Below are positions 429 to 54,756 of a DNA stretch of 54,756 nt, piece by piece (position 1 is the stretch's first letter; every line of letters begins with the position of its first letter). The translations under genes and the position numbers were made by a program. Under the pieces are notes generated by a model, which saw nothing but the letters and a program-made list of their open reading frames with translations, was not told the DNA's origin and did not search any database. The DNA comes from a virus: IMG/VR virus record IMGVR_UViG_3300020173_000001, positions 1 to 54,756 of that record, one strand, 5' to 3'.

Positions 429-1043
429 ATGACAAAATCAGCTACTTTACCTACGGTAACCTTGGACAGCAAATTCACTGTAGGTCGTAAGACCTATACT
501 TTGACTGATGGAATCAGTCATGCCGTAGCTTGTTATGACAAGCTTTACCTGATCCAAGAGGATCAGTTAGCTCTCTACAGAGAGCTTGGAAACATCTTGC
601 TTCAGATTGAAAATCTGTTCGGTGGTGACAAGAAAGCCTACGGCTCCTTTATCAGTAAAACTGATATGTCGAATGAGAACATCAGCTCTGCTGATAAGTA
701 TGATGCCAAATGGATTGCCACTCACTGGACTAAAGTCCAGAAGTTAAACAAAGCTGGTAAGCTTTCAGCACTTGGCGTATCTTCGATACGGAAGATTGTT
801 CTGGAAGCTCATCCTGAGCTTCGTAAGAAGCCTAAAGCTTCTTCGGCTGGTAACACCTCGAAGGGCAAGCCGAAGGCTTCTGAACAGCCTAGTAAGGCTG
901 AGGAGATCATCAAGAACACTGTCTTTGAGACAGTGGTAGCCAAGAACGAAAAGGAACTTGCAGAGCAAGTTTATGAAGCTCTTGAAGCCGGAGGCTTTAA
1001 CAGATCCACATTTGCAAAAGAGCTTGCAAAGCTCTTCAAGTAA
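429..1043 (+). CDS. Unknown early protein encoded by a hairpin-saturated frame
   Basis: First gene of the left arm, 204 residues. I do not recognise a family. The N-terminal 130 residues look globular, with a helical stretch near residues 42-65 reading LALYRELGNILLQIENLF. A Lys/Ser/Pro-rich linker (about 131-157) follows, then a short charged helical tail. The ATG at 429 is fixed by GGAG at 418-421 in a hairpin loop. About 20 perfect short hairpins fill the frame, so codon choice seems constrained by structure. A C(TTCG)G hairpin follows the stop. Position suggests an early host-takeover or regulatory protein, but nothing in the sequence proves that. Confidence 0.8.
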   Translation: MTKSATLPTVTLDSKFTVGRKTYTLTDGISHAVACYDKLYLIQEDQLALYRELGNILLQIENLFGGDKKAYGSFISKTDMSNENISSADKYDAKWIATHWTKVQKLNKAGKLSALGVSSIRKIVLEAHPELRKKPKASSAGNTSKGKPKASEQPSKAEEIIKNTVFETVVAKNEKELAEQVYEALEAGGFNRSTFAKELAKLFK

Positions 1044-1050
1044 ATCATTT

Positions 1051-1068
1051 AGCCCCCTTCGGGGGGCT
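1051..1068 (+). terminator. UUCG-loop hairpin after the first gene
   Basis: Seven-bp GC stem (1051-1057 with 1062-1068) around a TTCG loop, eight bases after the stop. There is no T-run after it, so it may be a weak terminator or a 3' stabilising/processing hairpin. Confidence 0.55.
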
Positions 1069-1074
1069 ATTCAA

Positions 1075-1093
1075 TCTCGGAAATTCCGAGAAT
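1075..1093. promoter_or_regulatory. 19-bp dyad, copy 2 (perfect arms)
   Basis: TCTCGGAAATTCCGAGAAT. The two 8-bp arms are exact inverse complements around a central A. The site lies between the hairpin after the first gene and the ribosome-binding hairpin of the second. Confidence 0.85.
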
Positions 1094-1096
1094 AAC

Positions 1097-1115
1097 TTTA
1101 AATCGGAGATTTAAA
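1097..1115 (+). promoter_or_regulatory. Hairpin carrying the ribosome-binding site of the second gene
   Basis: Arms of 8 bp (1097-1104 and 1108-1115) with a GGA loop. GGAG is 1105-1108 and the ATG at 1116 abuts the hairpin. This copies the design before the first gene with different arm sequences, so the structure rather than the sequence is conserved. Confidence 0.75.
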
Positions 1116-1301
1116 ATGGAATATTGTGGGGTTCAAATCTTGGAGTATTCAGATACTGAATACTGTTTTTGCTATCAAGGTCGTTTAATAAACGACAGAC
1201 ATAGTTTACCAGTTCTCCTTAAAAAGGAGAGTGACCATTGGGTTAACAAACATAAAGCCGAAGGCTTTATAGATTGTTTGATTGCTCTTGGTGAAATATA
1301 A
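1116..1301 (+). CDS. Unknown small early protein
   Basis: 61 residues, no family recognised; rich in aromatic residues and Cys in the first 25 residues. The start is set by the hairpin-borne GGAG. Four perfect hairpins with 7-8 bp stems occupy nearly half of the frame (1144-1164, 1180-1196, 1214-1230, 1252-1270), as in the preceding gene. Dyad copy 2 lies upstream and an intrinsic terminator follows, so the gene is probably transcribed as its own unit or closes the first one. Confidence 0.75.
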   Translation: MEYCGVQILEYSDTEYCFCYQGRLINDRHSLPVLLKKESDHWVNKHKAEGFIDCLIALGEI

Positions 1302-1376: not shown

Positions 1377-1449
1377 GATTTTTTTTCTTTTGTATGTGTG
1401 TAGCTAATTACATGCCGACAAAAGTCTATCAAGAATAGGAGTACATGCC

Positions 1450-1605
1450 GTGAACTTTATATTATTTTTTGCTTGGTTATTAATACTTGTATCTACTTCA
1501 AGTATATTATTAATAGTAGCTTATACTACTATTAATCCTATAATATTATTATCATTACTACCTGTAGTAATGTTACTTTCTGTTTTAGCTTTTGATCGGG
1601 GGTGA
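1450..1605 (+). CDS. Small two-helix membrane protein, GTG start
   Basis: 51 residues, almost entirely hydrophobic, with two predicted membrane helices (about residues 2-25 and 30-46) and a short charged tail ending DRG. AGGAG at 1437-1441 is spaced 8 bases from GTG 1450. The frame carries the 11-bp and 9-bp hairpins at 1509-1536 and 1553-1572. No family is recognised. A small early inner-membrane protein could act in superinfection exclusion or host takeover, but that is only a guess. Confidence 0.65.
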   Translation: MNFILFFAWLLILVSTSSILLIVAYTTINPIILLSLLPVVMLLSVLAFDRG

Positions 1606-1691
1606 TCATGCGTGTATGTTTCTATGATGATGAGGGGTTTATGTTTTCTTATCTTACCTGTCGTGACATGCGTCAAGTATCTAAGATACTT
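1483..1691. repeat. Further AT-rich hairpins
   Basis: The array continues with larger AT-rich inverted repeats: 1483-1505 (7-bp stem), 1509-1536 (11-bp stem, 6-nt loop), 1553-1572 (9-bp stem, 2-nt gap) and 1675-1691 (8-bp arms around one base). They lie inside two small reading frames (1450-1605 and 1608-1757). Isolated strong hairpins occur later, at 2275-2293, 2770-2790 and 2934-2950, and the density then falls. Confidence 0.75.
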
Positions 1692-1757
1692 AAACGTTTC
1701 CCTAGTAATGCAAAACTAATCACGGAAAATCCGAGAATGAAAAGGAGAATAAAATGA
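1608..1757 (+). CDS. Small basic protein overlapping dyad copy 4
   Basis: 49 residues starting MRVCFYDDEG and ending in a basic run (RMKRRIK). A G-run at 1598-1602 may serve as ribosome-binding site. The stop TGA overlaps the next ATG (ATGA), suggesting coupling. The last third of the frame is written across dyad copy 4, so the tail sequence may simply reflect the element. Unknown function; moderate confidence that it is translated. Confidence 0.5.
   Translation: MRVCFYDDEGFMFSYLTCRDMRQVSKILKRFPSNAKLITENPRMKRRIK
1720..1738. promoter_or_regulatory. 19-bp dyad, copy 4
   Basis: TCACGGAAAATCCGAGAAT, one base off consensus in the right arm. It lies inside the 3' end of the small frame 1608-1757 and just before the AAAAGGAG ribosome-binding site of the next gene. 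Confidence 0.75.
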
Positions 1758-1918
1758 ATTATGCTATACTTGTTTTGAATAAAGATGGTGAAGTTATCTT
1801 TGATAGTGGGCCATATGATGGCGACTGTGAGGTAGCTGGGCGAGCTATGAAACGTGCCGCCAATAGGTGGGAAAAGCGTGGCTACGAAGTAGAATTTCGT
1901 GAAAGAAAAGGAGAATAA
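1754..1918 (+). CDS. Unknown small protein
   Basis: 54 residues beginning MNYAILVLNKDG; a short beta-hairpin start and a helical charged second half. AAAAGGAG at 1739-1746 fixes the ATG at 1754. The ATG overlaps the upstream stop by ATGA. The next gene starts two bases after this stop. No family recognised. Confidence 0.65.
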   Translation: MNYAILVLNKDGEVIFDSGPYDGDCEVAGRAMKRAANRWEKRGYEVEFRERKGE

Positions 1919-1919
1919 C

Positions 1920-2156
1920 ATGAGTAACGTACCTTTAGATTTAGGTAATGGATATACCTTATCCATTGTTGCCGATACTGGCGGCTTAGTAGAGGTAGCA
2001 CTAATACATGATGATCATGGATTTATTAATACAAGTTTGTGGTTTTATGATTTGACTAAGGCATCAGATTTTTATGATGATGTAGTGAGACACATGAATG
2101 CCGATCAATTAATAATTGCTTTGGTAAAAGCAAAAGCATATGCAAAAGGAGAATGA
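1920..2156 (+). CDS. Unknown small acidic protein
   Basis: 78 residues, no family recognised. AAGGAG at 1907-1912 sets the start at 1920; an in-frame ATG at 1899 lacks such a site. The protein alternates beta-like stretches with an acidic patch (residues 30-60). It is part of a tightly spaced string of small genes. Confidence 0.7.
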   Translation: MSNVPLDLGNGYTLSIVADTGGLVEVALIHDDHGFINTSLWFYDLTKASDFYDDVVRHMNADQLIIALVKAKAYAKGE

Positions 2157-2157
2157 C

Positions 2158-2391
2158 ATGCATATAGAACACATTGCAGAGAACAAGGTTGTTGTTCACA
2201 AGAAGTCTATGGTATCAGGTAGGCTAAACTCTATGCTTTTACCTACGACTCAAGGTAAGATAGAGTACTGGATTGAATCAGGTAAACTGATTCAGGATGT
2301 CATGCCTGATTTAAATGATAATCAACGTGAGTTCTTGATGTCAGGTATTACACCTCGTGAATGGAATGATATGTTTGGTGAGGAGGATTAA
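2158..2391 (+). CDS. Conserved small phage protein ending in an EWNDMF-type motif
   Basis: 77 residues. AAGGAG at 2146-2151 selects ATG 2158. The C-terminal half (NDNQREFLMSGITPREWND) is a pattern I know from many small podovirus proteins of unknown role, where the segment before the end reads roughly REF..GIT..EW. A 7-bp hairpin lies at 2275-2293. No enzymatic motif is visible. Confidence 0.75.
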   Translation: MHIEHIAENKVVVHKKSMVSGRLNSMLLPTTQGKIEYWIESGKLIQDVMPDLNDNQREFLMSGITPREWNDMFGEED

Positions 2392-2394
2392 ACT

Positions 2395-2526
2395 ATGCCT
2401 AAGTGTGAAAACTGTGGTGACGAAGAAGAAGTTCTGTATTATACAGAATGGGGGTATGAGTGCGGTGATCTATGTGAAGTGTGCTCAGAAATGTTTCTAA
2501 ATATGGAGGATGAAGATGCAGATTAA
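2395..2526 (+). CDS. Putative small zinc-binding protein
   Basis: 43 residues with CENC near the N-terminus (C4, C7) and a second Cys group (C23, C27, C30), then an acidic tail. The spacing is that of a small zinc ribbon. GAGGAG before the ATG supports translation. The stop lies within the next gene's start region, so the two overlap slightly. Function unknown; nucleic-acid or protein binding is likely for such ribbons. Confidence 0.65.
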   Translation: MPKCENCGDEEEVLYYTEWGYECGDLCEVCSEMFLNMEDEDAD

Positions 2527-2722
2527 CAAACGTGACAGGTCTGCCCTACGTGCCGACAAATATTGGCGGTCTATATGGCATCGACAGATGCTGTTTAAAA
2601 CAAAACCCTTGACATCTGTTTCATCCTGTGACAGAACTAAGGAAATTAATGGCAACAAGGAGTTAAGCCAATGTCCAGATCCTACCTCGTCTATCAGTTC
2701 AGACCAGAAGTCTATGACATAA
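2516..2722 (+). CDS. Unknown small basic protein
   Basis: 68 residues, basic N-terminal half (RDRSALRADKYWRSIWHR), polar Ser-rich tail. GGAGG at 2505-2509 sits six bases before ATG 2516; an ATG at 2510 is too close to it. It overlaps the next gene by 52 bases in another frame, so the tail may be poorly constrained. Confidence 0.5.
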   Translation: MQINKRDRSALRADKYWRSIWHRQMLFKTKPLTSVSSCDRTKEINGNKELSQCPDPTSSISSDQKSMT

Positions 2723-3069
2723 TTAATGAGAACCCTCAATCAGAGATAGCAAGGATTGCTTTTGATCTAAGACTTCTTAATGAGAAGTCTGCAGAGCAGA
2801 GTGTCAATGATGCCTTGTTTCATAACATGTATTACCCAACCAAGTTCCTGCATCTAGGTGTGCTATCTGAATCTGTTGACCCACTAGAGGCTGTCTTTGA
2901 TGCAGGGAATGGCTATGGTAAAGCTAAGGTTACCACCCTTGCTAAGGGTGACACTAGCCTATCTGTAGGTAATATAATTGTACACTTGCAGCAGAACAAG
3001 GTATATCTATGTATGCCTACTGGATGGCATGAGCTTTCACGAGAGCTAGACTTTTGCCTTAAATTGTAA
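2671..3069 (+). CDS. Unknown early protein
   Basis: 132 residues, mixed alpha/beta, no family recognised. AAGGAG precedes ATG 2671. The stop TAA is fused to dyad copy 5. Two strong hairpins (2770-2790, 8-bp stem; 2934-2950, 7-bp stem) show the left-end structural habit persisting at lower density. Confidence 0.75.
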   Translation: MSRSYLVYQFRPEVYDIINENPQSEIARIAFDLRLLNEKSAEQSVNDALFHNMYYPTKFLHLGVLSESVDPLEAVFDAGNGYGKAKVTTLAKGDTSLSVGNIIVHLQQNKVYLCMPTGWHELSRELDFCLKL

Positions 3070-3088
3070 TCACGGAAATTCCGAGAAT
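3070..3088. promoter_or_regulatory. 19-bp dyad, copy 5
   Basis: Consensus TCACGGAAATTCCGAGAAT, fused to the TAA stop of the gene ending at 3069 and followed at once by the GGAG ribosome-binding site of the next gene. Confidence 0.85.
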
Positions 3089-3098
3089 GGAGAATCAA

Positions 3099-3491
3099 AT
3101 GAAAACCGAAATATATTATAACCTACATAAGCATGTCTTTTCTGTAAGGAAAAGAAACGGTAAGGTTCAATGGCATACTAATAGTATCATAGCACATAAG
3201 CCTGTTTTTGCAGTGCAACCTGCAGGGTGGGCAAAGACTCAGGATGAGCAGGTCAAGAATGTACATGCGTTTGTTAGACCTCAAAGCATTGAGGTGGATG
3301 CTGATCTATGGTTTCAAGACCCGGACTATGCCCATGATCCTGACATAGACAGGCTTGAGCGTGTCAGGTATAACCCATATCATGCGAACACATTTGTAGA
3401 TGAGCACGATGAGCCGATCTACCATGCTGAGGTTGCTTATTTGTATATTGACAAACAAAATAAACCTGTCATAAAGGTGTTCAGAACTTAA
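3099..3491 (+). CDS. Unknown early protein
   Basis: 130 residues, rich in His, Trp and Asp; no family recognised. The start is taken at ATG 3099 with GGAG at 3089-3092. The ATG at 3087 lies within dyad copy 5 and has no site. Beta-like N-terminal half (HKHVFSVRKRNGKVQWH) and an acidic middle. The gene lies between dyad copies 5 and 6. Confidence 0.75.
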   Translation: MKTEIYYNLHKHVFSVRKRNGKVQWHTNSIIAHKPVFAVQPAGWAKTQDEQVKNVHAFVRPQSIEVDADLWFQDPDYAHDPDIDRLERVRYNPYHANTFVDEHDEPIYHAEVAYLYIDKQNKPVIKVFRT

Positions 3492-3503
3492 ACGAAAATC
3501 TAA

Positions 3504-3522
3504 TCACGGAGATTCCGAGAAT
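3504..3522. promoter_or_regulatory. 19-bp dyad, copy 6, doubling as ribosome-binding site
   Basis: TCACGGAGATTCCGAGAAT. The A-to-G change at 3511 creates GGAG (3508-3511), nine bases before an ATG at 3521 that begins inside the motif. In this copy the element itself appears to serve as the translation start region. Confidence 0.8.
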
Positions 3523-3667
3523 GCTTTACTACATAGAAAATCAAGAAGGTTTATGGTGGTCTAACACAGATGGTTGGTGTAATAATACACGATCTTTATT
3601 TAACCAAAATGAAAAAGAGATTTTTAATCTACCCATAGGTGGTGAATGGAAGGAGTTAATACAATGA
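3521..3667 (+). CDS. Small protein starting inside dyad copy 6
   Basis: 48 residues beginning MLYYIENQEGLWWSNTDGW. The ATG overlaps the last bases of the dyad, and the GGAG made by the variant dyad lies nine bases upstream. The stop overlaps the next gene's ATG (ATGA). Aromatic-rich; unknown function. The coupling and the changed dyad base argue that it is real. Confidence 0.65.
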   Translation: MLYYIENQEGLWWSNTDGWCNNTRSLFNQNEKEIFNLPIGGEWKELIQ

Positions 3668-4362
3668 CTTTATCCACACAAGAAATGAATGATCTACTTA
3701 AATATAACTCAGACATAGGCATGGCTGCATCTGCTAGGCCAATTAACGAGACTGAAAATCACGATGGTTCTTGTGACTACAGAACAGATTACTGTGATGA
3801 GACTTGTTATAATGTTAAGTTATATAGGATTTATCCAGACATGGCTAAACGTGATGACAGATGCGAGACTATCTGGCAGAAACTAAACAAGTCTAACTCT
3901 GACTTCACTAAATTCTTTAGTCGTAAACGGTACGATACTAGTCGTGTTCGTCACATGACCAGAGGCGAAGCCTTCAAAGATGTAATTGATGTGTATCGTG
4001 TCAAGACTATGTGCCTACTTAACCCGGATACTACATGGTGGATTCCTACCAGAGCATGGCGTAATCCACGCCTCAAAGCTCTGATTGAGAAAGAGCTTAT
4101 GCCTCTACCTAACTGTGCCATTAATGCATCACTCGACCCATCCAACAGCAAAGCTGAATGGAAAATGTTGATTGATGACGATTGGAATATCATGTTCTAT
4201 GGTGATGATGACTTGACATCTGATCCTGTTTATGGAACAAGAATGTTCCTATGCCCTAAGACCCACAAGGATCTCAAGGGTCACTGCAAGGACTGCAAGG
4301 CAGGTTGCTTTGCACAAAAGACTATTAACCGCACACAGATTGTGCATCTATCAGAACACTAA
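3664..4362 (+). CDS. Cys-rich protein resembling the phage 'gene product 88' family
   Basis: 232 residues. The start at 3664 follows AAGGAG at 3650-3655; an upstream ATG at 3646 would precede that site. An N-terminal Cys cluster (CDYRTDYCDETCYNVKLYR) and a C-terminal cluster (CPKTHKDLKGHCKDCKAGC) bracket a Trp-rich middle. This layout recalls the gp88-type domain found in phages, thought to be a metal or Fe-S binding protein of unknown activity. The family call is from memory of the pattern and is moderate. Confidence 0.65.
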   Translation: MTLSTQEMNDLLKYNSDIGMAASARPINETENHDGSCDYRTDYCDETCYNVKLYRIYPDMAKRDDRCETIWQKLNKSNSDFTKFFSRKRYDTSRVRHMTRGEAFKDVIDVYRVKTMCLLNPDTTWWIPTRAWRNPRLKALIEKELMPLPNCAINASLDPSNSKAEWKMLIDDDWNIMFYGDDDLTSDPVYGTRMFLCPKTHKDLKGHCKDCKAGCFAQKTINRTQIVHLSEH

Positions 4363-4381
4363 TCACGGAATTTCCGAGAAT
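4363..4381. promoter_or_regulatory. 19-bp dyad, copy 7
   Basis: TCACGGAATTTCCGAGAAT, fused to the TAA stop at 4360-4362 and followed by AAAGGAG for the gene at 4395. Confidence 0.85.
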
Positions 4382-4394
4382 GAAAGGAGTCGAT

Positions 4395-4559
4395 ATGGGT
4401 ATCGAAAATAAACTTGAAGAAGCTATAACTAAATGGACAGACAGTTTAGAGATAGATCAGTTAATTAATTACGTCCAAGAAGATCTCTGGGTGTATTACA
4501 CTGAAAGCGCAGATGAAGAAGAAGCTTTAGAATTTATAACTGAAATGGAAGTAGGATAA
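4395..4559 (+). CDS. Small acidic protein
   Basis: 54 residues, strongly acidic (tail DEEEALEFITEMEVG), helical. AAAGGAG precedes ATG 4395, and dyad copy 7 lies directly upstream. Small acidic early proteins can mimic DNA or bind host factors, but there is no motif to support a specific role. Confidence 0.65.
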   Translation: MGIENKLEEAITKWTDSLEIDQLINYVQEDLWVYYTESADEEEALEFITEMEVG

Positions 4560-4572
4560 AAGGAGAAGACTA

Positions 4573-5412
4573 ATGCCATTTGATACAACAACATCATTCG
4601 TACCAGAGCACTTGGACTTTGAAGTAGAGTTCGAGGAAACTAAATTCAAAGACAAGAAGTATGTAATCAATGCTAATACAGGTGAATACCTTGGTATTGT
4701 GGGCAAGGACTTTACTTGTGCCAATCATGGTGACTTCTTTCGTAATGTCGTAGACACTGCGACTCAGGAGTTACAAGAAGGTGATTTACATAATGCAGAG
4801 TTTAACTTCAGGACTGCTCGTGGTGGTGCTTGGGCTATGCTCGACATCACATTACCTAGCATGAAGACTGTAATAGAAACTGATCGACATGAAACTGAGA
4901 TAGGTAATCGTATTATATCATTACATGGTATTGATGGGTCATGCTCTAATCAGGTATTCTTTGGTGCTATTGATTTCTTTTGCACTAATGGATGTATACG
5001 TGGTGATCACGATAAGATTCGCAGGAAGAACACTTCTAATTTCTCACTTAGTTCATTCATAAATGAGCTATCTAATTTGCGGTCTGACTTTTATGAACAG
5101 TCTATCAAGATGAAAACATGGGCGCAGACTAGTCTCAAAGATGTAGATGTAGAAGCATTGCTAGAAGCAATGATACCATCAGAACGTAAAGCTAAAAAGA
5201 TGTATCAGCTATACCGTTCAGAAGCATTTACTCGTGGAGAAAACAAGTGGGCCTTGTACTCTGCCTTCACTAACTATGCATCTTATGCAGATAATCGTAA
5301 TGGTTTTAATCTGCGTAATACAGGTAATGACACACAAGCTACCTCAATGTGGGGTAGAGAACAGGAGGTATCTAAGTGGGTTAGCGATGATCGCTTTTTA
5401 CTAGCAGCTTAA
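4573..5412 (+). CDS. DUF932-like phage protein
   Basis: 279 residues. It resembles the DUF932/TIGR03299 phage- and plasmid-borne family, including the central segment IDFFCTNGCIRGDHDKIRRK and the C-terminal WALYSAFTNYASYA, where family members carry a conserved W.L..A.T pattern. The biochemical function is unknown; members are common among early genes of phages and on plasmids. AAGGAG lies upstream of ATG 4573. The stop is fused to dyad copy 8. Confidence 0.8.
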   Translation: MPFDTTTSFVPEHLDFEVEFEETKFKDKKYVINANTGEYLGIVGKDFTCANHGDFFRNVVDTATQELQEGDLHNAEFNFRTARGGAWAMLDITLPSMKTVIETDRHETEIGNRIISLHGIDGSCSNQVFFGAIDFFCTNGCIRGDHDKIRRKNTSNFSLSSFINELSNLRSDFYEQSIKMKTWAQTSLKDVDVEALLEAMIPSERKAKKMYQLYRSEAFTRGENKWALYSAFTNYASYADNRNGFNLRNTGNDTQATSMWGREQEVSKWVSDDRFLLAA

Positions 5413-5431
5413 TCACGGAATTTCCGAGAAT
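5413..5431. promoter_or_regulatory. 19-bp dyad, copy 8
   Basis: TCACGGAATTTCCGAGAAT, fused to the TAA stop at 5410-5412 of the DUF932-like gene and followed by AAAGGA for the gene at 5446. This is the last clear copy. None was seen in the rest of the left arm or in the right arm. Confidence 0.85.
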
Positions 5432-5445
5432 AGAAAGGAACTACA

Positions 5446-5718
5446 ATGACTATGACACCAGAAGAAATCGCAAAGAACCATCAAGAGTGGGCAGACAAAC
5501 GAGAAGCACGTAGGATAGAGCTTGAAGAAAAATGCAGTAACTTAACAGAGGAACAAATAACTGCAATTAAATTTGCCTATGAAACAATACAAGAAGCGGA
5601 AGGCAATCTTAGCGAAATGTTTGACATTACGATAGATGATGCTAGAAGTATATCTAAAGCAGAAAGTAAGTTAAGAATGTCTTTTCCTCATTTATGTAAG
5701 CACCCTTATTATTCTTAA
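5446..5718 (+). CDS. Unknown helical protein
   Basis: 90 residues, largely helical and charged, no family recognised. AAAGGAA precedes ATG 5446, directly after dyad copy 8. It is the last gene preceded by the dyad. Confidence 0.7.
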   Translation: MTMTPEEIAKNHQEWADKREARRIELEEKCSNLTEEQITAIKFAYETIQEAEGNLSEMFDITIDDARSISKAESKLRMSFPHLCKHPYYS

Positions 5719-5740
5719 TACAAACACAAAGGAGTTAAAC

Positions 5741-5959
5741 ATGTTTGTACTTGTAGCAACTAAACCACTCAATGACGGAACAAAAGGGTTTCGTTTCAAC
5801 CTCTTAGGTAAGAAAGGATTGTACCGTAAACGTAATCGTGACTCTCGTGGTTGGTTTAAATATGAACCACTTAGTACTATGAACGCCTATCACTTTGGCA
5901 AACGTAGTTTGTATATTGAACATGCTTATGGACGTAAGCTGTATCACTTTGCAGGGTAA
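5741..5959 (+). CDS. Unknown small basic protein
   Basis: 72 residues, rich in Arg, Lys, Tyr and Phe, beta-like. AAAGGAG precedes the ATG. Three bases separate its stop from the next start. Unrecognised. Confidence 0.65.
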   Translation: MFVLVATKPLNDGTKGFRFNLLGKKGLYRKRNRDSRGWFKYEPLSTMNAYHFGKRSLYIEHAYGRKLYHFAG

Positions 5960-5962
5960 CAC

Positions 5963-6223
5963 ATGGATTACTACGTAGTAGAAATGTATGTTGACGAATT
6001 GGAAGAGTGCCTCATTATGAGGTGCTCGACTATCGAAAGTGCTAGTCTTATCTGTGAAAAACTAGAAGAAGCATTTCCTAATGCTGTCTTTGACATCATG
6101 GATACTGAACCTGTAATAAAAATGAGAGACTATAACTTGGAAAGGTATGAAGAATTGCGAAGTGTTTTGACATCTAAACCAAGAAGTCCACAACTAATTG
6201 TGATAGAAGGGGGTAAGCGTTAG
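5963..6223 (+). CDS. Unknown small protein
   Basis: 86 residues, alternating beta and helical stretches, no family recognised. It lies in the tight string of small genes before the integrase; spacing suggests co-translation with its upstream neighbour. Confidence 0.65.
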   Translation: MDYYVVEMYVDELEECLIMRCSTIESASLICEKLEEAFPNAVFDIMDTEPVIKMRDYNLERYEELRSVLTSKPRSPQLIVIEGGKR

Positions 6224-18949: not shown

Positions 18950-21900
18950 TTATTCTGTCATCTTTTGGAATCTTGATAGATCTCTTAGTGACTTTTCAGT
19001 ATTTAAATACTGTTGTAAAATAAATAACTCGTTTTGTTCTAAGTCTTCTACTTCACCTAAGCCTAATTCTTTTACTGCCTTTTGAATACCCTTCTTAGGA
19101 TACTTAGATGTTATGTCGTATTGCAGTGAAATCACTTCTTCAGGACCAGAGTACTGCATTCTTAAAAATGTTTTAGCTAAATCTTTTACTCTTGGTACAA
19201 CATCACCATTCCAATGATCTAGTTTTTGTTGTTGAGTTAATTTATTAAACCAATTACTTTCTAATAGTAGGCTAGACTCAGCTTCCATAATATCAAACAC
19301 AATACCATTAAGAGCATTAGCTGCTTTAGGTGCTTGATCTCTTATCTTCTTAGCAGTATTTAAATCAAAATCTCTAAGACCCATTTTATTCATCACACGT
19401 TGTGTGTCAGTAAGTCTAATGATTCTAGCACCTAATACTTTAGTTGATTGTATATCAGCCCTACCACCTGCTGCAGTCTCTCTAGGATCTGCTAGTGGTT
19501 TACCTGTAAACAGAGGAATGATATTATCTACATAACGAAATGCATTATTAATTAATTTATTATTTTGAACCCTGTCAATTGGTGCTGCATTTTCACCTCT
19601 TGCAACACCAGCTAAAATATTCAATGGTTCTAGCGGCCTGATCAAAGGATTAACATATTGAGTTGCTAATGTAGTGCCAACTATTTCCATACCTTTAACT
19701 ACATCTCTTCTTTCAGGATCAGCCATAAATTTAATAGCTTCTAATGTATCACGTTGTGTTTTATCTAAGTTTCTAAGTAACCCTGAAAGTCCAAAATCTT
19801 GAGTAAACTGACCAAAAGCTTTTATTGCTTGCTGGTATTCACCCATTAAACTAAGTGCCATTATTCTTGCTGCACCTTTGTATGCTGAAACAGGGAAGTC
19901 ATATTGTTGACTAAAGACCTCACCTGTTAAAGGATCTTGAGCCGCATACATAGGCAAACCCTGCTTTACATTTTCTATCTCTTGTTGTGCTAGTGTGTAA
20001 ATAATACCAGCACTAACTAATGACCTAGATATAGCTTCTTCGTAAGACATATCTTCATACTTACCTGCAGCTTTTAAAATAACGTTTACACCTGTAGTGT
20101 TTTTACCTAAAAAACCTATAGTGTTATTAAAGAATCTTCCAAAAGGAACTATCATACCAAGACCCGGCATATTTCTAGCGTCCTCTAACATACCAGCAAG
20201 TTTACCTATGCCATCACTAGACTTGTAAGACTTAGAAAATATAGCTTCTATTGTATCATCAACAGCACTAGTTTCTATATCACGATATTCTTTTGAGGCC
20301 ATAAATTTTTGAAGTGTCATGTCTCCAATATTTTGTGACCGATAAAAATCATTCCAACCTTTACCTGTAGCAATCCTAAGTTTTTTATCCATTTGAAATA
20401 AAAACTCTTGCGATTTAGTAAATGCATCTTGTGCTTGTACTAAAGATAGTCTTTGAATTAAGTCAATTTTTTCATCGATAGCTAATCCAACAAGTTTTTG
20501 ATCTGGGGTAAATTTGCCACCAGTTAAAAGTTGATTAGTGTTTTCTACACCACCGGGAAGTACGCTGTTTAATTTTTCCAATGCCTCAGAATTTCTTTGC
20601 AGCGCTGATTCAAAAGCAGTGTAAGTCATGTCAGCATCTAATAAAAATCTTACTCTTTGGGCATTGGATTCAATAAGTGCTTTAGCTATTCTTTGTGTAT
20701 TAGCACCTTCTTCTGTCATTCCTATAAGCTTTTGCAGAGTACCTTTACCTGCATAAATTAATGCTACAGACATATCTGATGCACTTTGTAATGCGGAGTT
20801 CGCACCCCAACCAATTACATTTAAAGCACTGGTAGAAGGGTGTGAAACTAATAATCTTATTAATCTATTTTGAACTTTAGCAGTACCTTCCATAAACTTA
20901 CTAGGTTCTTTAGGTTTCTTTTTAGTGTCCTTTACAAACCCACCATCTAAAGCAGAGTCATACAAATCTTTAAGTTGTTTATCACTAATAGACATACCTA
21001 GTTGTCTAGCTGAGTTACCTGCTGCACCAAGTGCAGTACCTGCTTGAGATATTTTATACGCAAAAATGTCACCTATATCACGACCAGTAACCTTAGATCT
21101 AGGTATTACTTTTCCATCTTCACCTTTAACTTTAATTTTATTACCAGTTGCTTTTTCTATAGAACGTAATAGTCCTTGAGCTTCTTTATCACTTACTTCA
21201 GCAATTAGGTCTGCCATCCAGTTACTAAACTTATCATCTTCAAATCGTTTAGCCCATACGAATCCACGTTCATATGCAACCTGAGTCATACCTTTTAATA
21301 TAACATTGCCTTCTTTATCAGCATGACCAAACAATAAGTTTTGTACAAACTCTACACCAAAATCTTTACTATCTTTAGATAGTACTGCACCACCTTTTAA
21401 TTTTGTTTTCCAATCTCTACCAACATTAACTTTATCTTGATTTACATATGCACCTATAGTTTCAGAAACCTCAGAAACAAAACCCTCAGTTTTTGGTTCA
21501 GGCATTACTATACTAGGCAGTGCTGTATCTGACACACCCCTTCTAGCAACTAATCCTGCTTGCAATCCACCAAGAAGAATACCACCAAGTGCAGCAACAC
21601 CTACTGATAAATAACTAATATCTTCTTGTGCTTCTACATCTACCATACCCTCTTGATACAGGTACTCCATACCTGAGCCAACCATAGCATCAACACTAGT
21701 TACAACACCTATCTCTGTAATAGCTGCCTTAGTAGCTAGTCTTTGTGCTGCAGTTTTACCTAATACATTCTGTGAGTATGCAGCTATCTTAGTTTTAGAT
21801 CCAGTACGAGCAGCTTTTACTCCATCAGTAAATACTTTAGTACCTACTTTTTTAGCAGCTTCTTCTGTACCTTCTTTTTTCATTGCCTCAAGAGCAACCC

Positions 21901-22465
21901 TTTGTGCTCCTTTAGTTCCTACACGAAGAGATCCACCAGCAACAGCTTTACCAATTAAACCACCAACAAGGTTTACTGGATCAAGTACTACACTTCTACT
22001 AAAGTCCATTAGTCCTTCAGCTTTTTCAGCAATAGATGTTTCTTTACTAAAAATACCAGCCATATTCTCATACAACTGGTACGCTTTGGCAGCCCTAGCC
22101 TTTTTATCTGCATCATCTTTTATGTCGTTAATGTAGTCCATCTCAGCTAAACCCCTTACGGAGTTTCCTGATACTACACCTCTACGATTATTTAAAAAAC
22201 TATCAACAACAGATTCTTTGGTTTCATCTTTTATAGATTCATCACCATATCTGTCACGCATATACCCCTCTACAATAGAGTAGGCATAGTCATTTTCTAC
22301 TATATCATCTTGAGTATATGTGCCAGCTTCTGGTAGTGCAGGAGAAGAATCTACTTTAATATCTTCTGTTATATATTTATCAAAGTAGTTTTCACGATCT
22401 TTTTTTTCTTCTTCTTCAGTATCTACAGGCTCTGTTTCAAGATACTTATCAAAGTAATTTGTCAT
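18950..22465 (-). CDS. Large internal virion / ejection protein
   Basis: 1171 residues, last gene of the right arm. The N-terminus carries a duplicated NYFDKY box (residues 3-8 and 27-32). Glycine-rich hydrophobic patches occur around 155-180 and 285-310 and could insert in membranes; the rest is helical. Size and place after the tail genes match gp16-like proteins that leave the capsid with the DNA. No lytic-transglycosylase motif seen; a separate lysozyme is encoded three genes upstream. Start overlaps the preceding stop by one base (TAATG). Confidence 0.7.
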   Translation of the reverse strand: MTNYFDKYLETEPVDTEEEEKKDRENYFDKYITEDIKVDSSPALPEAGTYTQDDIVENDYAYSIVEGYMRDRYGDESIKDETKESVVDSFLNNRRGVVSGNSVRGLAEMDYINDIKDDADKKARAAKAYQLYENMAGIFSKETSIAEKAEGLMDFSRSVVLDPVNLVGGLIGKAVAGGSLRVGTKGAQRVALEAMKKEGTEEAAKKVGTKVFTDGVKAARTGSKTKIAAYSQNVLGKTAAQRLATKAAITEIGVVTSVDAMVGSGMEYLYQEGMVDVEAQEDISYLSVGVAALGGILLGGLQAGLVARRGVSDTALPSIVMPEPKTEGFVSEVSETIGAYVNQDKVNVGRDWKTKLKGGAVLSKDSKDFGVEFVQNLLFGHADKEGNVILKGMTQVAYERGFVWAKRFEDDKFSNWMADLIAEVSDKEAQGLLRSIEKATGNKIKVKGEDGKVIPRSKVTGRDIGDIFAYKISQAGTALGAAGNSARQLGMSISDKQLKDLYDSALDGGFVKDTKKKPKEPSKFMEGTAKVQNRLIRLLVSHPSTSALNVIGWGANSALQSASDMSVALIYAGKGTLQKLIGMTEEGANTQRIAKALIESNAQRVRFLLDADMTYTAFESALQRNSEALEKLNSVLPGGVENTNQLLTGGKFTPDQKLVGLAIDEKIDLIQRLSLVQAQDAFTKSQEFLFQMDKKLRIATGKGWNDFYRSQNIGDMTLQKFMASKEYRDIETSAVDDTIEAIFSKSYKSSDGIGKLAGMLEDARNMPGLGMIVPFGRFFNNTIGFLGKNTTGVNVILKAAGKYEDMSYEEAISRSLVSAGIIYTLAQQEIENVKQGLPMYAAQDPLTGEVFSQQYDFPVSAYKGAARIMALSLMGEYQQAIKAFGQFTQDFGLSGLLRNLDKTQRDTLEAIKFMADPERRDVVKGMEIVGTTLATQYVNPLIRPLEPLNILAGVARGENAAPIDRVQNNKLINNAFRYVDNIIPLFTGKPLADPRETAAGGRADIQSTKVLGARIIRLTDTQRVMNKMGLRDFDLNTAKKIRDQAPKAANALNGIVFDIMEAESSLLLESNWFNKLTQQQKLDHWNGDVVPRVKDLAKTFLRMQYSGPEEVISLQYDITSKYPKKGIQKAVKELGLGEVEDLEQNELFILQQYLNTEKSLRDLSRFQKMTE

Positions 22466-54315: not shown

Positions 54316-54343
54316 ATTATACCGCACTTTGAATATTTGTCAA
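54316..54343 (-). promoter_or_regulatory. Right-arm promoter, distal (consensus)
   Basis: Minus strand TTGACA (54343-54338), 16-bp spacer, TATAAT (54321-54316): both hexamers perfect. Expected to be the main promoter of the 35-kb right arm. Confidence 0.85.
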
Positions 54344-54629
54344 TACTAAAAGTAAGAAATAATATTTAAATTAATTTAATTTTTCTTTACCACCTTTAAA
54401 TTTCTATAATAGGTCCAGATCCTATAAAGTATAAGTCCAGTTGATCACAAATTGTTACAGTCTTGAAATATACTACACATAATCCCCCATGTACCCTACA
54501 AAGACTTACACCTTTCGTACCAATTATAGGGTTAACCCCCTGTTTTTTATAGAAAATACTATATATGGGCTGGTATTTATTGTGGTTAACAGTTAAAAAA
54601 TACCCCCCGCTGTCATTGAGTGTATACGC

Positions 54630-54756
54630 ATACGGAGACCCCCCGGATGGCCCATGCCCCCGGCCTCTAAGGAGGCTATGCGTGTCTGAATCCGTAGGAT
54701 TATGAGCTACTTACAATGCTAAAGCATTGTTATCTATTGTTTTTTAAAACAATAAG
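54630..54756. repeat. Terminal direct repeat, right copy
   Basis: Exact copy of 1-127. Removing one copy gives a circular unit of about 54,629 bp in which the right-arm control region (54146-54629) runs directly into the left-arm leader. Confidence 0.95.

Follow-up and report, generated by a model that had tools for sequence, protein, structure and literature searches.

The genome-scale ordered RNA structure (GORS) of RNA viruses is a pervasive, genome-wide pairing in coding sequence that is detected by comparison with sequence-preserving shuffles, and the promoter hairpins of bacteriophage N4 have short stems with purine triloops. The nearest published phenomenon to the locus described here is the coding palindromes of Nematomorpha mitochondrial DNA, with perfect inverted repeats lying, as here, in conserved functional protein genes with both arms coding, being gained and lost between species, and with template switching discussed as their maintainer (PMC6649704). 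Template switching leaves arm homogenisation and spacer inversion as its marks (PMC8604942), with such events in yeast depending on transcription (PMC3820800). Here we describe a chain of short perfect hairpins at the left end of a marine phage genome, running through its first two genes and the spacers around them.

The window is the whole stretch of viral DNA that was analysed, 54,756 nucleotides of IMG/VR record IMGVR_UViG_3300020173_000001, with a 128-bp direct repeat at its ends (1-128 = 54629-54756) so that the map closes into a circle of 54,628 bp. Judged by its genes, the genome is that of an HMO-2011-type marine phage, from a group with SAR116 and Roseobacter hosts, circular and 54.6 kb in size. 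This placement follows from a terminase 66% identical to that of HMO-2011 and 84–85% identical to those of CRP-13 and CRP-9, a DUF932 protein 58–70% identical to those of HMO-2011, CRP-1, and CRP-345, and genes for a primase/helicase, a DNA polymerase, and a ribonucleotide reductase, with the replication and packaging modules shared by the group and its plan of ~54–56 kb both found in the genome. The gene layout is divergent from the left end, with early and replication genes running rightward and structural genes leftward, and a perfect sigma-70 consensus promoter (TTGACA-N16-TATAAT, 54316-54343, minus strand) points leftward from an AT-rich intergenic region. The minus strand also encodes a 1171-residue protein (18950-22465), for which Pfam and PHROG searches gave no match. 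A search for tRNA and tmRNA genes found none, and Rfam covariance models at gathering thresholds gave zero matches across the window.

Hairpins were defined as perfect inverted repeats with a stem of at least 6 bp and a loop of 2–8 nt, with non-overlapping ones counted. Positions 1-1400 hold 35 such hairpins on the + strand (84-1375), compared with 2.8 ± 1.4 in dinucleotide shuffles (maximum 7, n = 200), and 15 whose stems reach 8 bp or more, compared with 0.14. The hairpins start at 84, 106, 142, 177, 280, 323, 378, 411, 481, 502, 527, 549, 569, 603, 650, 681, 725, 750, 776, 804, 825, 885, 917, 955, 1018, 1050, 1075, 1097, 1144, 1180, 1214, 1252, 1305, 1334, and 1357, with arms of 6–11 bp, loops of 2–8 nt, and a spacing of one per 20–45 bp. 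Gene 1 (429-1043, + strand, 204 aa) contains 17 of them, compared with 1.2 ± 1.1 in dinucleotide shuffles (maximum 6, n = 300) and 2.0 ± 1.4 in shuffles keeping both protein and codon use (maximum 7, n = 300), and more than one third of its bases sit inside perfect stems. Stems of 8 bp or more number 5 in gene 1, compared with 0.07 (dinucleotide) and 0.16 (codon-preserving), whilst gene 2 (1116-1301, + strand, 61 aa) contains 4 hairpins compared with 0.3 and 0.7 respectively. Chance and composition are thus ruled out as the cause by both kinds of shuffle. A preliminary description of this DNA had counted 16 stems in 429-1043 with loops of 2–7 nt, where loops of 2–8 nt give the present 17, and the four 8-bp hairpins it singled out (502-520, 804-822, 917-935, 1252-1270) are all present exactly as described.

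Five hairpins (84-101, 106-125, 142-159, 177-192, 280-295) lie wholly upstream of the −35 box of a putative gene 1 promoter (339-368, + strand; TTGACA at 339-344, −10 region at ~362-368), with a sixth (323-341) overlapping the TTGACA, and the density over 1-337 is 14.8/kb, a 7.7-fold enrichment. TTGACA or TTGACT is kept at this position across the family, pointing to a promoter role, and an additional promoter may lie further upstream. The stretch 193-279 holds zero hairpins at the cut-off used, and contains a conserved, hairpin-free 30-bp element, CTTTTCCTTGCGCATAATGCTCACCAAAAG (240-269, + strand), present upstream of gene 1 in 25 IMG/VR contigs; the chain, earlier said to continue without a break through the flanking spacers, does extend into the spacers but is interrupted by this gap. 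The 30-bp element, possibly an operator or activator site, adjoins or lies upstream of TTGACA across very divergent phages, directly abutting it in loci L225, L231, and L232, with three stems intervening in the window. Its sequence (CTTTTCCTTGCGCATNATGCNCACCAAAAG) is kept in L225, L231, L232, L237, L238, and L243, and in both of the gene 1 families described below.

Immediately 5′ of the gene 1 ATG lies the hairpin TTAATTC-GGA-GAATTAA (411-427), and the hairpin TTTAAATC-GGA-GATTTAAA (1097-1115) occupies the same place before gene 2, with the Shine-Dalgarno GGAG of each gene falling in and beside the GGA loop, an arrangement kept in relatives. The spacer between the two genes also carries a hairpin with a TTCG loop (1050-1069). 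Gene 2 is replaceable, being swapped for other small genes in L003, L004, L007, and L142 with the flanking hairpins and terminators kept, and is followed by two intrinsic terminator-like sites, the first (1300-1329) with a TTCG loop and a T8 tail and the second at 1352-1380. A repeated palindrome around CGGAAATTCCG recurs 5′ of several genes (301-317, 1075-1091, 1357-1375, 1720-1736), whilst the repeated palindromes at comparable positions in other HMO-2011-type phages differ from it, being TGTCCAACGTTGGACA in CRP-1 and AGTCCG-N4-CGGACT in HMO-2011.

Hairpin density is 23.5/kb over 344-428, 27.6/kb in gene 1, 42/kb in the spacer between genes 1 and 2, 21.5/kb in gene 2, and 34/kb in the terminators, making 344-1390 the densest stretch at about 22–42/kb. 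The steepest fall is at the terminators, beyond which a thinner tail (1391-3500, 4.5–9 hairpins/kb, 3–5 times expectation) reaches to about 3.3–3.5 kb, with 9/kb over 1391-1610, where a small hydrophobic ORF lies (1450-1605, + strand), 7.6/kb over 1611-2400, and 4.5/kb over 2401-3500. Density is 2.0/kb over 3501-6000, 2.2/kb in the right arm, and 2–3/kb elsewhere, a background far below that of the left end, and the right-end intergenic region equals expectation. This profile bears on the reading in which the early mRNA is the acting form, with the transcript folding on itself against RNase E-type decay, Rho or R-loops, or an RNA-targeting defence, which we regard as possible, if on balance unlikely. 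The highest densities cover the leader, the two genes, and their terminators, with a drop to 9/kb directly after, and this drop is explained by an mRNA at least as well as by a DNA form; the Shine-Dalgarno sequences set in the GGA loops of two hairpins are likewise in keeping with a role in the message. However, the 7.7-fold enrichment 5′ of the putative promoter is not what an early mRNA starting there would lead one to expect.

The gene 1 protein has a predicted layout of an N-terminal six-helix part, a disordered linker, and a C-terminal helix pair, with nothing above cut-off in Pfam or PHROG and no match at E ≤ 0.001 in structure searches of the PDB and BFVD. Gene 1 is found in ten IMG/VR loci at 65–100% best-segment identity, all of which carry the chain, allowing for two loci that are cut off, and in L107, L142, and L112, located through the neighbouring DUF932 gene, a gene 1 of only ~43% identity has 16–17 hairpins, mostly different ones. 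The excess over codon shuffles recurs in these homologues (17 compared with 1.9 in L008, 16 with 1.9 in L107, and 17 with 2.9 in L112). At greater distance, phages such as the isolates CRP-1 and CRP-345 have another protein of 200 residues at the gene 1 position, and most members of this second family have 5–16 hairpins where 1–2 are expected, with codon-shuffle tests giving 11 compared with 2.1 in CRP-1, 10 with 1.5 in L201, 9 with 1.1 in L219, and 16 with 2.0 in L223; L209, L210, L211, and L216 are low, with merely 1–4. Using the leader element as a DNA query brought up further gene 1 homologues with 6–9 hairpins compared with 1.1–1.8. The two families are probably homologous, as suggested by profile comparison, where the match is weak (E = 3e-4, probability 40%), and by a shared predicted layout in which six helices are followed by a disordered linker and a final helix pair. 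Thus hairpin density is kept across relatives while single hairpins turn over.

A peptide-pattern search of GTDB genomes found no cellular homologue of the CRP-1-family protein. Members of this family (L198, L201-L209, L215-L222) have a conserved AT-rich leader ~100 bases 5′ of gene 1, apparently a nested stem-loop, with a predicted consensus inner stem of 13 pairs, of which 3 covary, pairs too few for this leader to act as an RNA control for G-U tolerance. The isolates CRP-1, HMO-2011, and CRP-9 (L184, L183, L192) show a weaker or graded excess over the first 1.5–4 kb, with weak to moderate enrichment in HMO-2011, CRP-9, and CRP-345, and in HMO-2011 and CRP-9 no gene 1 homologue was found despite this excess. 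The chain is not a general trait of HMO-2011-type phages, as CRP-2, CRP-13, CRP-207, and CRP-603 show no excess, and since these four have similar replication genes, phages of the group can replicate without it, a point against the reading preferred below.

Covariation was assessed by aligning seven relatives and taking the hairpins of the window as the structure, a choice of one aligned sequence that inflates the percentage paired (89.7% of alignment cells) and leaves double changes unaffected. Both-sided changes are seen at 46 of 255 pairs, compared with 22.8 ± 3.1 in shuffles (0 of 500 as high) and 7–15 in slid controls. The hairpin CACTGTCT-TTG-AGACAGTG (917-935) reads TACAGTCT-TTG-AGACTGTA in L007, with two compensated pairs and every change synonymous, and TGACTGAT-GGA-ATCAGTCA (502-520) has the counterpart TGACTAAT-GGT-ATTAGTCA in L010; other compensated stems are TAGGTCGTAAGACCTA to TAGGACGTAAGTCCTA, CACTGTCTTTGAGACAGTG to TACAGTCTTTGAGACTGTA, and ATCGGTGGAACCGAT to ATCAGTGGAACTGAT. 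At fourfold synonymous sites the difference rate is 0.378 in spacers and 0.399 in loops but lower, at 0.255, in arms, and of the 218 changes at fourfold sites that pair with a further third codon position, 127 are compensated, with both the rates and the compensation counts pooling related, non-independent sequences. That shuffles with the same protein and codon use fall far short of the hairpin number, and that stems covary in homologues keeping the protein, supports the preliminary claim of selection, or of a mutational process, acting at the level of nucleic acid.

The second of these possibilities, that polymerase template switching is elevated in this stretch, which is transcribed or replicating, and makes short inverted repeats perfect by quasi-palindrome correction with no function necessary, appears to us distinctly unlikely as the origin of the chain. 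Template switching does occur here, as evident from loops inverted between intact arms: the hairpin TATACTTC-TTT-GAAGTATA (1334-1352) has its loop inverted to AAA in L005 and L007, two other hairpins show the AAA/TTT exchange as well, and TAC/GTA and TTTA/TAAA inversions also occur, with about four distinct hairpins in which every base of a three-base loop differs. Where both partners of a pair are third codon positions, change is near the spacer rate (0.32 compared with 0.38) and mostly compensated, and pairing is strictly Watson-Crick, both in favour of this reading. However, in 210 cases of hairpin gain or loss the split of changes between the arms follows the binomial expectation (40/22/3 observed compared with 40.6/20.3/4.1 expected for those with five changes), with no excess of one-arm rewriting, which is therefore not the usual way in which hairpins arise. 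Furthermore, the chain is confined to one locus, related phages with similar polymerases lack it, and the leftward unit behind the consensus promoter at 54316-54343 has hairpins at background level. One-sided synonymous changes are also rarer in arms than in spacers, although homogenisation could lower these as well. Of the template-switch correction proposed earlier, the inverted loops speak for its action, and the distribution of changes across arms speaks against it as the maker of the hairpins.

The shape of the hairpins was compared between 357 unique array hairpins, codon shuffles, and hairpins elsewhere in these phages. The closing pair is 5′-pyrimidine/3′-purine in 78% of array hairpins and 86% of those within gene 1, compared with 60% in codon shuffles and 51% elsewhere, triloops make up 44% of array loops compared with 19% elsewhere, and G+C content peaks beside the loop and declines outward along the stem. 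Among coding triloops, 19 of 67 (28%) are GNA, compared with 7 of 115 (6%) in codon shuffles, with the mirror class TNC reaching 6 (9%, compared with 5%); GNA being enriched far beyond its mirror, the + strand is favoured, a bias that an acting mRNA would also produce. In DNA, a GNA triloop closed by C is exceptionally stable, but the coding GNA triloops here are mostly T-A-closed. The GCGAAGC mini-hairpin is treated in papers such as PMC4686876. The retained density, the covariation, the constraint on arms, and closing pairs and loops typical of stable hairpins together support real folding under selection.

Short stems with the purine triloops GGA and GAA resemble, by analogy, the promoter hairpins of N4, raising the prospect of hairpin promoters or protein-binding hairpins such as those of the N4 virion RNA polymerase. 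This is highly improbable here, with no RNA polymerase family found among the large proteins tested, the 1171-residue protein matching nothing, and the stems sharing no sequence and sitting inside genes rather than at gene starts. Copies of one mobile palindrome are rejected, the stems being unrelated apart from the CGGAAATTCCG motif and the gene 1 proteins aligning through the hairpins without matching insertions.

In structures selected as RNA, G-U pairs are expected to be far better accepted than A-C mismatches. Among stems of gene 1 with one mismatch, there are 14 G-U and 28 A-C, where chance gives 12.5 and 17.5, and hence no wobble signature, whilst whole arrays have 66 G-U and 51 A-C, a ratio near background. 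Lack of an excess of imperfect repeats is a mark of the Nematomorpha palindromes, and the one-mismatch stems of gene 1 stand at 1.1–1.7 times chance, by mismatch type. Conserved hairpins with one broken pair show a slight excess of G-U (76) over A-C (52; counts non-independent), which agrees with an acting mRNA. Survival of one-sided changes with the partner unchanged, relative to spacers and pooled by hand from related sequences, is 0.72 for A-T to G.T, 0.61 for A-T to A.C, 0.46 for G-C to G.T, and 0.34 for G-C to A.C, so that losses appear to follow the strength of the pair and wobble pairs are slightly better tolerated, G-U-making changes surviving little better than A-C-making ones (~0.57 compared with ~0.48 of the spacer rate, likewise pooled by hand). 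The folding energy, also raised as a point of comparison in the preliminary description, gives z-scores of −3 to −7 against codon shuffles, as an mRNA function would predict, but those of the minus strand are equally strong. Additionally, neither GNRA nor UUCG tetraloops are enriched inside gene 1, which again argues against RNA. The near-absent G-U advantage and the hairpins 5′ of the putative promoter weaken both of the RNA proposals made at the outset, an armoured mRNA and a structured RNA that also encodes protein; hairpins working in single-stranded DNA would be the best fit among those early readings. For the same two reasons, and despite the drop at the terminators, we place DNA slightly ahead of RNA.

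Our preferred reading, to which we assign a probability of roughly 0.4, is that the + strand chain is selected as nucleic acid and acts as single-stranded DNA near the early promoter and a probable origin. When single-stranded, the + strand of the left end of the early region would fold locally into short Watson-Crick hairpins, with selection keeping the density of hairpins and not any single one. Stems would gain and lose pairs through ordinary point mutations in both arms, with breaks disfavoured and compensating changes re-establishing pairing beneath a conserved protein. In the likeliest working form, the + strand DNA at this site would be left single-stranded through displacement, either by an R-loop or by the first leading strand, and the hairpins may block re-annealing of the displaced strand, protect it, or mark it for priming. 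Early mRNA with the same hairpins would be a close second as the acting form, and we infer the choice of DNA over RNA, an origin at the left end, and a benefit. Still more tentatively, the first early unit could bear a protein-independent ‘hairpin track’, its + strand selected as single-stranded DNA, as a new kind of cis-acting element laid over coding sequence, which might serve, for example, as an R-loop or displaced-strand origin.

Whichever form acts, the strand at this locus matters, as DNA or RNA, beyond coding for protein, and the locus is an extreme example from nature of one sequence bearing two messages, as it encodes a conserved protein and also makes the strand self-complementary. 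A chain acting in DNA would point to a phage origin or early-region element of a kind not yet described; one acting in RNA, to an mRNA design not previously known from DNA phages; and one of mutational origin, to a template-switching hotspot strong enough to shape a gene. The chain is carried by a very abundant marine phage group and by the cultured Roseobacter phage CRP-1, the latter making it directly testable.

A literature search combining HMO-2011 and hairpin found no published description of such a chain. The locus shares with GORS its pervasive pairing in coding sequence and its excess over sequence-preserving shuffles, but it spans ~1.3 kb plus a tail, with background density beyond approximately the first 3.5 kb and thus no genome-wide structure, and consists of discrete perfect hairpins without a G-U signature in a dsDNA phage. 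Small DNA hairpins, GNA-type triloops, and a position near early genes are shared with the N4 virion RNA polymerase promoters; those are a few defined consensus sites with a dedicated polymerase, whereas the stems here number in the dozens and are unrelated to one another, and the proteins tested include no polymerase of that family. As in quasi-palindrome correction, there are short perfect inverted repeats with short spacers and spacer inversions, yet those events are sporadic, whilst this locus is tiled and shows no one-arm rewriting (PMC8604942, PMC3820800). The Rickettsia palindromic elements also place palindromes within reading frames, but as copies of one inserted element (PMC6649704), in contrast to the differing stems here, through which the protein aligns. 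Finally, the palindromes of Nematomorpha have long arms (repeats of up to 284 bp) and occur in many mitochondrial genes, whereas the arms here are far shorter and the chain is confined to the first early unit and spacers of a dsDNA phage, its density kept across two gene 1 families.
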